A model generated the notes under the pieces. The model ran no database searches. It was not told the origin of the DNA and saw only the letters and a program-made list of their open reading frames with translations. From assembly GCF_002234535.1 (NCBI RefSeq), contig NZ_CP022521.1, forward strand, positions 5,998,001 to 6,062,000: a DNA stretch of 64,000 nt, read 5' to 3'. The DNA is from Actinoalloteichus hoggarensis. GTDB lineage: Bacteria > Actinomycetota > Actinomycetes > Mycobacteriales > Pseudonocardiaceae. A program made the position numbers and the translations under genes. The number at the start of each line of letters is the position of its first letter. The stretch's first letter is position 1. Below are positions 48,458-49,592 of this stretch, one piece after another.

Positions 48458-49105
48458 ATGCCCGACTTCGTGAACGGAATCGTCTCGTACCTGACCTCGC
48501 TCGACCCCGCCGTCTTCCTGATCGGCCTGCTGGTGATCATGATCCTGGAGACGTCGTTGCTGGTGGGGCTGGTGGTGCCCGGCGATGTCGCCGTCCTCGT
48601 CGCCGCCGCGACGCTGGGTTGGGAGTACGGCCTGTGGATCGTGCTGATCAGCTTTCTCGGGACCCTCGTCGGGCAGTCCGGCGGCTATCTCCTCGGCAGA
48701 CTGATCGGCGACCGCATCCGGCGAGGCTGGATCGGCCGCAAGATGGGTGACAGGAGGTGGGCGGAGGCGGAGTCGATCGCCACCGGGGACGGCGCCCGCG
48801 CCATGATCACCACTCGGTTCGTCGCCGTCGTCCACTCGATGGTGCCGGTCGTCGTCGGATCGCTGGGCCTGAGCTACCTGCGTTTCATCCGGCTGGCCAC
48901 CCTCGGGGCCGCGCTCTGGGCGGTCGCCTGGACCGGATTCGGCCTGTTCGTCGGCGGTGCGGGCCGGGCGATCGGACACCAGTGGGGCACCCTGGGATTC
49001 GGCGTGCTGGGCATCCTGGTGTCGGGCGTGGTGCTGTGGCGCTCCCTCAGCAAGCGCCGCCGAGAACACGCCCGTGCGCAGGAGGCGGAGCAGCAGACCG
49101 GTTGA
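48458..49105 (+). CDS. DedA family membrane protein
   Basis: A 215-residue membrane protein of the DedA/VTT family, which scrambles or flips polyprenyl-phosphate or phospholipids. Key points: FLIGLLVIMILETSLLVGLVVPGDVAVLVAAATLG, with the family E-x8-PG pattern; GQSGGYLLGRLIG; and TTRFVAVVHSMVPVVVGSLGLSYLRFIRLATLG, with a family arginine before a Pro/Gly turn. Five hydrophobic stretches are visible. The last 20 residues are charged and likely cytoplasmic. Start ATG 48458 has GGGGAAGGA 12-18 nt before it, somewhat far. The gene ends 24 bases before the leader peptide of chorismate mutase, and may be partly co-transcribed with it. Confidence 0.87.
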   Translation: MPDFVNGIVSYLTSLDPAVFLIGLLVIMILETSLLVGLVVPGDVAVLVAAATLGWEYGLWIVLISFLGTLVGQSGGYLLGRLIGDRIRRGWIGRKMGDRRWAEAESIATGDGARAMITTRFVAVVHSMVPVVVGSLGLSYLRFIRLATLGAALWAVAWTGFGLFVGGAGRAIGHQWGTLGFGVLGILVSGVVLWRSLSKRRREHARAQEAEQQTG

Positions 49106-49129
49106 CGAGTGTTGTGGCAGACTGAAGCC

Positions 49130-49186
49130 GTGTTCACGCACCGCTACTTTGCTCACGGGTACCGGACTCCGGCGTCCGTGGTCTGA
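49130..49186 (+). CDS. Leader peptide of chorismate mutase, candidate
   Basis: An 18-codon reading frame starting with GTG: MFTHRYFAHGYRTPASVV. It has Phe at 2 and 7 and Tyr at 6 and 11, together four aromatic residues in 11 codons, which fits a Phe/Tyr sensor in front of the first enzyme of the Phe/Tyr branch. It has no Shine-Dalgarno, but CAGACT lies 6 nt before the GTG, so it could be leaderless. The codons CGG-ACT-CCG-G form one arm of an alternative RNA pairing with the terminator downstream. Confidence 0.6.
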   Translation: MFTHRYFAHGYRTPASVV

Positions 49187-49243
49187 ACACGATCAGCCAC
49201 CACCTAAGCCCCGGAGTCCAGGCGGACCCGGGGCCTTCTCGGT
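49164..49243 (+). promoter_or_regulatory. Candidate transcription attenuator before chorismate mutase
   Basis: A terminator-like hairpin at 49208-49234 has arms GCCCCGGAGTCC and GGACCCGGGGC with one bulged A and a 4-nt loop. Its 5' arm (CCGGAGTCC, 49211-49219) is perfectly complementary to GGACTCCGG at 49164-49172 within the leader peptide codons. The two pairings exclude each other: a ribosome stalled at the Tyr-Phe codons would leave 49164-49172 free to block the terminator, while a ribosome reaching the TGA at 49184 would cover it and allow termination. This is classical attenuation logic, inferred from base pairing only. Confidence 0.6.
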
Positions 49244-49286
49244 TCCGGGCCGCAGGACCCCGACGTCTCGTCAGAGGAGAACCGAG

Positions 49287-49592
49287 ATGAACGTGGCCAG
49301 CTCCGACTCGGCGACGGCAGGACCCGGCGAGCCAGCGCCCGAGGAGATCGCCGAGCTGCGCAAGGAGATCGACTACCTGGACAGCGAGATCCTGCGGCTG
49401 GTCCGCAGGCGTATCGAGGTGTCCCAGAAGGTCGGCAAGGCGCGCATGGCGGCAGGCGGGCCGCGCATCGTCACCAATCGTGAGATGGCGGTGCTGGCCA
49501 GATACCGCGAGCTGGGTCCGGACGGCCGTGAACTGGCCATGGCGTTGCTGCGGCTCGGGCGTGGCAGGCTGGGCGGCGAACGCTCCGAGTGA
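49287..49592 (+). CDS. Chorismate mutase, AroQ-delta type
   Basis: A 101-residue all-helical enzyme that converts chorismate to prephenate, the entry to phenylalanine and tyrosine. Visible are EEIAELRKEIDYLDSEILRLVRRRIEVSQKVGKARMAAGGPRIVTNREMAVLARYRELG and the C-terminal LLRLGRGRLGG. Active-site Arg and Lys positions of the AroQ fold are present (R in RRRIEVS, K in VGKAR). The RLGRGRLG tail is shared with the M. tuberculosis enzyme, which is stimulated by binding DAHP synthase, so this may be similarly controlled. AGAGGAG 6-8 nt before the ATG. Upstream is a candidate leader-peptide attenuator. Confidence 0.93.
   Translation: MNVASSDSATAGPGEPAPEEIAELRKEIDYLDSEILRLVRRRIEVSQKVGKARMAAGGPRIVTNREMAVLARYRELGPDGRELAMALLRLGRGRLGGERSE

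Follow-up and report, generated by a model that had tools for sequence, protein, structure and literature searches.

The pheL-pheA attenuator of Escherichia coli combines a leader peptide containing Phe codons with alternative hairpins and controls a chorismate mutase (CM-PDT). Among actinobacteria, the aroR leader of Corynebacterium glutamicum was reportedly described for the first time by Neshat et al. in 2014. The available parts of PMC11802643, PMC4046766, PMC6892785, and PMC7356990 place aroR before aroF, a 3-deoxy-D-arabino-heptulosonate 7-phosphate (DAHP) synthase gene, and in the first of these, where pheL-pheA is also named, aroR is described as responding to limitation of Phe, and not of Tyr. 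Leader peptides followed by antiterminator and terminator hairpins are described for trp, ilvB, and leuA genes of Streptomyces and Corynebacterium in the accessible text of PMC1262725 and PMC8079986; several are leaderless, and some are without a typical terminator. As far as its available text goes, the former, a 2005 survey, predicts actinobacterial trp, ilv, leu, and cys elements and gives no conserved RNA structures upstream of Phe/Tyr operons in the actinobacteria studied, while the available part of the latter treats eight Streptomyces leaders, several of them leaderless and none for Phe/Tyr. Here, we describe a locus in a 64,000-nucleotide stretch of the Actinoalloteichus hoggarensis genome (contig NZ_CP022521.1, positions 5,998,001 to 6,062,000; hereafter, the window), in which a chorismate mutase gene is preceded by a short leader frame with Phe and Tyr codons and by a set of competing RNA pairings. 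This element is probably a ribosome-mediated transcription attenuator, through which the charging of tRNA-Phe and tRNA-Tyr would govern how much chorismate mutase is made.

Like pheL-pheA, the element has Phe codons in the leader, alternative hairpins, and a chorismate mutase as the controlled gene; compared by description, it differs from pheL-pheA in phylum and enzyme type, in its leaderless-type start, in a core of both Phe and Tyr codons, and in the use of a rare TTT codon. It resembles aroR-aroF as an actinobacterial leader peptide on the aromatic pathway (aroR has Phe-Tyr-Phe, according to the text available) but precedes chorismate mutase rather than DAHP synthase; the two were likened by description. 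It shares its general plan with the trp, ilvB, and leuA leaders, yet concerns other amino acids and another gene. Leader-peptide attenuation is thus a known kind of control, of which the chorismate mutase member is apparently unlisted. It is not in Rfam: a search of the window gave no match at the gathering score, and five matches far below that score at 49050-49350. No description of a Phe/Tyr element was found in the open-access literature searched; subscription literature lay mostly outside that search, so that an earlier description is possible. The available parts of PMC13236596, PMC1173090, PMC2965389, PMC12125101, and PMC6429828 do not mention it, and PMC4833913 is without relevant terms.

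Conservation of the leader was examined in regions upstream of chorismate mutase genes. In the family sample, the enzyme was present in 149 of 150 genomes, and upstream DNA was taken from 120 of the 149 (30 + 90 loci); named relatives and 40 hand-chosen loci from other families of the order and class were added, and six duplicates (L032, L034, L035, L036, L037, and L038; L numbers are our locus handles and f numbers our family handles) were dropped, leaving 162 regions. Under a strict search for [FY].?[FY]G (frame length 10-40 codons, no more than 330 nt upstream), 149 of the 162 regions qualified, compared with 8 of 1620 when sequences were dinucleotide-shuffled and 1 of 162 on the reverse strand over the same 330 nt. 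Once variants and hand-set cases were included, the count rose to 154. The variants admitted were L001-L003 of the window's genus (RYFAHG, RYFARG), L081 (RFAHG), and L152, where the leader lies farther upstream; the frames of L105 and L146 were set by hand, L146 having met the strict count through a wrong frame. To judge by the sequence, the leader core has diverged in the window's genus, the usual core being FFYG. Typical leader peptides are RFFYGTRTPAPVIA in the window's family, QRRFFYGYRPAVPVV in f8, RQFYFGYRIPVPVSG in f4, RFYFYYGTGSPAAVGRA in f15, and SFFYGHRDPVSVTAG in f16. The leader is also found in Actinoalloteichus caeruleus, Actinokineospora enzanensis, Goodfellowiella coeruleoviolacea, Kutzneria viridogrisea, Gandjariella thermophila, and Solihabitans fulvus. 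The conserved Phe/Tyr codons that the preliminary description of this locus had proposed to look for in relatives are therefore there. Moreover, 148 of the 154 leaders have TTT three codons ahead of Gly (49148-49150 in the window), although in four genes of the window Phe is encoded 40 times by TTC and once by TTT; at the presumed stall position, the rare codon may adjust sensitivity or contribute to an unpaired stretch rich in U.

In the window, the leader frame, which had been reported as 18 codons with four Phe/Tyr codons, is exact to the base: it runs from GTG 49130 to TGA 49186 and encodes Phe2, Tyr6, Phe7, and Tyr11. The hexamer CAGACT (49118-49123) lies 6 nt before the GTG and is part of what looks like an extended -10 promoter element, which would let transcription begin at the leader start codon, i.e., produce a leaderless transcript. 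The TTGACG at 49102 shares letters with the stop codon of the preceding gene and lies only 10 nt from CAGACT, a poor spacing for a -35 element, and a sigma-70 scan of the window reported no promoter at the leader. Another in-frame GTG at 49109 could also open the frame; GTG 49130 is preferred because of the -10 spacing. Among the 154 leaders, 133 have a -10-like hexamer followed, after 6 nt (91 leaders) or 7 nt (42 leaders), by an in-frame start, the spacing expected where transcription starts at the start codon; the script allowed 5-9 nt with a preference for 7, and the count stands without a shuffled control. A leaderless attenuator leader had been called unusual, which is contradicted by the available text of PMC8079986, where leaderless leaders are described for several actinobacterial attenuators. 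As a separate observation, GTGTTCA at the leader start (49130-49136) can pair, in the fold, with TGAACAC at the leader stop (49184-49190) over 7 bp, and L002 has the same letters in both places.

Three pairings in the region overlap in pairs: a 1:2 hairpin within the leader frame, a 2:3 antiterminator, and a 3:4 terminator-type hairpin (Table 1). The claimed perfect 9-bp pairing of GGACTCCGG with CCGGAGTCC was confirmed exactly, and the 2:3 stretch (49164-49219) folds at -27.5 kcal/mol (z -4.41), an energy equalled by 1 of 200 shuffles. The energy of the 3:4 hairpin was equalled by none of 200 shuffles, and that of the 1:2 hairpin, which was absent from the preliminary description, by 10 of 200. 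When the RNA is cut off where the hairpin ends (49130-49234), its fold combines 1:2 with 3:4. By pair counts and energies, the antiterminator and the terminator are mutually exclusive and both conserved, and the 1:2 protector overlaps the leader.

Compensatory changes were evaluated in an alignment of 55 of 63 chosen references, with L012 trimmed and eight sequences that were long or had a seemingly misassigned stem (L003, L095, L046, L097, L020, L157, L169, and L170) dropped. Standard pairs occupy 88.2%, 89.1%, and 87.3% of cells in 1:2, 2:3, and 3:4, respectively. Cells changed on both sides number 25, 30, and 35, against shuffled means of 8.4, 8.0, and 16.0, with none of 500 shuffles as high in any of the three pairings; further pair types exceed the shuffles for 1:2 (9 of 500) and 2:3 (1 of 500). 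The shuffles ignore relatedness, which a control with slid registers retains, and slid registers scored below the true ones in cells paired, in both-side cells, and in covariation score for 1:2, 2:3, and 3:4; the structure was derived from the same sequences, a bias in its favor. The consensus fold given by RNAalifold contains just the outer stem of 1:2 and the lower stem of 3:4, as expected, because 2:3 is exclusive with both. Examples of 2:3 found by eye are, besides the GGACTCCGG/CCGGAGTCC pair of the window, GGTCCGCGG/CCGCGGTCC in L135, GAGTCCGG/CCGGGCTC in L150, and TCGTCCG/CGGGCGA in L147, the last three each with one mismatch or G-U pair. When strands were swapped between families, a sequence's own strands paired better in 1290 of 1520 trials for 2:3 and in 1233 of 1520 for 3:4; 1210 of the 1520 trials start from the window's family, and L166 and L167, without a clear terminator, were omitted. 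A further pairing, 4:5, was considered as a conserved third state and set aside: the pairing potential is present, while co-change is weak, own strands being better in only 938 of 1520 trials. The compensatory changes that the preliminary description had sought in both the antiterminator and the terminator are thus seen in each, and also in 1:2. Together with the leader in 154 of 162 loci and its position before the gene, they support the attenuation reading first put forward there.

Table 1. Elements of the chorismate mutase leader region in the window, and loci with a leader before DAHP synthase
Feature	Coordinates or loci	Strand	Evidence
Extended -10-like element TG-G-CAGACT	49115..49123	+	Sequence read; hexamer CAGACT = 49118-49123
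Leader peptide frame MFTHRYFAHGYRTPASVV	49130..49186	+	Direct read and translation; counterpart in 154/162 loci
Probable control codons Tyr6 (TAC) and Phe7 (TTT)	49145..49150	+	TTT at the Phe7 codon in 148/154 leaders
1:2 protector hairpin within the leader frame	49154..49180	+	-12.9 kcal/mol, z -1.79
Segment 2, antiterminator 5' strand, GGACTCCGG	49164..49172	+	Sequence read; 2:3 covariation
3:4 terminator-type hairpin, weak T tract in the window	49208..49234	+	-22.3 kcal/mol, z -4.75
Segment 3, antiterminator 3' strand and part of the terminator 5' arm, CCGGAGTCC	49211..49219	+	Sequence read; 2:3 covariation
4:5 hairpin rivalling the terminator for its 3' arm, role uncertain	49227..49249	+	-16.9 kcal/mol, z -3.60 (49226-49250)
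Shine-Dalgarno region of the chorismate mutase gene (AGAGGAG)	49273..49279	+	Sequence read
Chorismate mutase, AroQ-delta type, 101 aa, presumed controlled gene	49287..49592	+	Pfam CM_2, NCBIfam TIGR01808/NF005894
DAHP-synthase leader loci	L221-L227, L229-L231, L238; L241-L245, L255, L256, L258-L261, L263-L266, L269; L273-L277, L279, L280		

In the mechanism that we propose, RNA polymerase would start at or beside the leader GTG, and a ribosome would follow immediately. With Phe or Tyr scarce, this ribosome would stall at Tyr6/Phe7 and cover segment 1; segment 2 would then pair with segment 3, the 3:4 hairpin would be blocked, and polymerase would enter the enzyme gene. With both amino acids plentiful, the ribosome would reach the stop codon and cover segment 2, so that 3:4 could form and transcription would end. 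In a leader left untranslated, 1:2 would form first, and 3:4 would again be free to form. The amino acids presumably sensed fit the pathway of the gene product, chorismate mutase being the branch point to Phe and Tyr. The preliminary description had placed the decisive stall at Tyr6-Phe7 or at Tyr11. A ribosome with Tyr11 in its A site would, given the footprint of a stalled ribosome, cover segment 2 and favor termination; Tyr6/Phe7 are therefore the likely control codons, and Tyr11 is an unlikely one.

Several observations weigh against this picture. The equilibrium fold of the whole region (49102-49292) consists of the antiterminator and the 4:5 hairpin, not the terminator form; the order of synthesis must therefore matter. 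The RYFAHG/RYFARG core of the window's genus has fewer control codons than FFY, the core of L146 is degenerate (FLLG), the leader of L126 seems frame-broken, one base short, and no leader is visible in seven of the 162 regions (L133, L137, L138, L139, L140, L163, and L171). In the alignment, the number of pairs with a change on both sides is not above shuffles (169, 121, and 137 of 500 for 1:2, 2:3, and 3:4), nor are further pair types for 3:4 (149 of 500). Outside the window's family, swap margins are small in several families; f5 gives the opposite result for 2:3, as does f2 for 3:4. A pattern scanner found no T-run or terminator after the window's hairpin, and among the 10 nt from the last stem base, Ts average only 3.8 for the window's family and 4.2 for f16.

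Some of the exceptional loci have features of their own. In L126, TTTTTACGGG stands near the core where relatives have TTTTTCTACGGG, and the hairpin sequences are retained. In L138 and L139 (f8), the enzyme itself seems to start directly after a -10-like box, and L137 and L140 (also f8) have a different long upstream region instead; this grouping comprises two loci of each kind from some f8 genera.

Of the hairpin reported at 49208-49234 as terminator-like, then, the hairpin itself is exact, while the sequence that follows it, GGGGC CTTCTCGG, is a weak T tract, and no terminator is recognized there. The poor T tract of the window and its family makes Rho or a U-independent terminator possible. 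In such a variant, the leader and the antiterminator would work as described above, early termination would be brought about by Rho or a protein, and the hairpin would mainly pause polymerase. The accessible part of PMC8079986 is in line with it, reporting Streptomyces leader attenuators without a typical intrinsic terminator. Intrinsic termination is, in contrast, the better fit to a strong G+C hairpin conserved with compensatory changes and to the T-runs of sister families: the mean T count is 5.0-6.7 of 10 in f8, f4, f15, f13, f5, and f2 (families with at least two loci; the counts used shorter stems, and a few family stems are probably still misassigned). We consider the variant unlikely, though it is the strongest of the alternatives, and its likelihood overlaps that of the preferred explanation.

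The same stalled-ribosome switch could act on translation instead, with 3:4 versus 4:5 freeing or hiding the ribosome-binding site of the enzyme. In favor of this are the strong 4:5 hairpin of the window (-16.9 kcal/mol) and an 8-bp pairing between CTCGGTTC (49238-49245) and GAACCGAG (49279-49286), adjoining the enzyme start codon, that appears when 49235-49292 is folded; that fold, however, has a z of only -1.03, and 4:5 co-changes little in the swap trials. With the terminator formed, 76 of 118 family loci have a Shine-Dalgarno region that is less open than in the shuffled control for that locus, and masking is strong in L003 (unpaired probability 0.06 versus 0.47 in the control). The mean effect is nevertheless small (0.40 versus 0.43 with the upstream part shuffled, n = 118), the window itself gives 0.34 versus 0.37, and L002 shows the opposite (0.46 versus 0.19). 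The weak T tract of the window's family speaks for control of translation, and the T-runs in relatives of other families speak against it. The available text of PMC7356990 names AroR a translational regulatory leader peptide. On balance, translational attenuation appears rather improbable, more so than termination by Rho or a protein.

Less probable still is an action of the peptide itself, with its conserved R-x-P-x-P-V end, whether by nascent-chain arrest or in trans as a small protein. Conservation of FFYGxRTPAPV is striking among leaders of the window's family, and R-x-P motifs occur in arrest peptides. The C-terminal end nonetheless differs between families (GTDRPSRRSSR in f15, GHRDPVSVTAG in f16), and the end diverges while base pairing is kept by compensation, so that RNA pairing explains the conserved end. 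Finally, although hairpins form readily in G+C-rich genomes and the window's 1:2 hairpin alone is matched by 10 of 200 shuffles, a chance short frame beside ordinary G+C-rich hairpins, with no regulation, is hardly credible given the leader controls (8/1620 and 1/162), the compensatory changes, and the constant position before the same gene reported below.

The proposed attenuator is widespread. At E <= 0.01, a covariance model detected the element in 259 of the 298 genomes sampled from the order (training genomes included), and among the matches listed, which are the strongest, the enzyme match follows the site on the same strand, with the site 30-326 nt upstream, in 85 of the 85 genomes compared. 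Of 296 genomes in the class, 103 gave a match, which overstates the spread because weak matches are partly false: of 20 loci retrieved, 11 have an aromatic leader before DAHP synthase, two lie before chorismate mutase, and seven are unconvincing. Eight proteins downstream of these loci are DAHP synthases by TIGR01361. In the phylum sample, 18 of 198 genomes have a match at E <= 1e-4; eight of these matches are outside the class, and seven of the eight have an aromatic leader (e.g., GDWFFYGGRGPA) before DAHP synthase, the identity of which was checked for six of these seven loci. In other families, and in families outside the class, DAHP synthase is preceded by leaders that contain Phe/Tyr and frequently Trp (MRTAWSFWYGDGPVR, MQRNFWRFYGYRP, and GDWFFYGGRGPA).

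Related leaders elsewhere, then, do precede DAHP synthase, which is here of the TIGR01361 type. In a class sample drawn by TIGR01361-type protein (the best 30 loci, four genomes shared with the set of 20 loci above; one locus was unanchored, and one had only 28 nt upstream), an aromatic leader was seen in 16 of 29 anchored loci, a count made without a shuffled control. Trp is in or beside the core in 12 of these 16 leaders versus 1 of 154 chorismate mutase leaders, a comparison that leans toward a difference because the DAHP synthase search accepted Trp, while the chorismate mutase search required Phe/Tyr. The presence of Trp fits the pathway, since DAHP synthase feeds Trp, Phe, and Tyr, while chorismate mutase feeds Phe and Tyr only. 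Most of the 21 DAHP-synthase-leader loci examined have the same hairpin plan, and the covariance-model matches suggest common descent of the two groups of leaders. It is conceivable, at a little less than even likelihood, that one ancient attenuator family tracks the aromatic control point across the phylum: Trp, Phe, and Tyr codons (SFWYG, FWRFYG, WFFYGG) would stand before DAHP synthase in many lineages, and in the window's order and certain further families the version preceding chorismate mutase would have been reduced to Phe and Tyr (FFYG), the rare TTT being retained at the stall site to set sensitivity.

The downstream gene is the chorismate mutase that the preliminary description had named: its product matches Pfam CM_2 and NCBIfam TIGR01808 and NF005894, all above cut-offs. 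Its best solved relatives are Rv0948c-type enzymes, and another solved relative, 5hub, is presumably the C. glutamicum-type enzyme. The enzyme belongs to the AroQ-delta type. The chorismate mutase frame is open far upstream through the attenuator (48957-49592), and automatic annotation could therefore extend the protein wrongly. The upstream neighbor is a DedA/VTT-domain gene ending at 49105. In the window's genome, the covariance model gave a best site of 72 bits and a next one of 19 bits, i.e., no second strong copy; a pattern search gave one exact match and one with 3 mismatches, and its backward control one per strand. No FFYG-like leader lies directly upstream of the type II DAHP synthase (L271) or the prephenate dehydratase (L272) of this genome. 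In L271, a frame with several aromatic codons, MTVMFSIWLFGPVGA, is found 373-421 nt before the type II DAHP synthase match and may be due to chance.

The element would give actinobacteria a widespread and apparently unlisted means of controlling the Phe/Tyr branch point, seen where the 2005 survey (PMC1262725), in its available text, gave no RNA control of Phe/Tyr operons. It extends to a genus, f8/g53, which is probably close to Mycobacterium and whose enzyme is ~90% identical to Rv0948c (8 differences over 78 aligned residues by our own count). The loci also form a comparative set, of families with strong and with weak T-runs and of Phe/Tyr and Phe/Trp/Tyr leaders, which may serve questions about attenuation driven by leaderless leaders, about a rare codon at the stall site, and about the shift of control between the first and the branch-point enzyme of the aromatic pathway.

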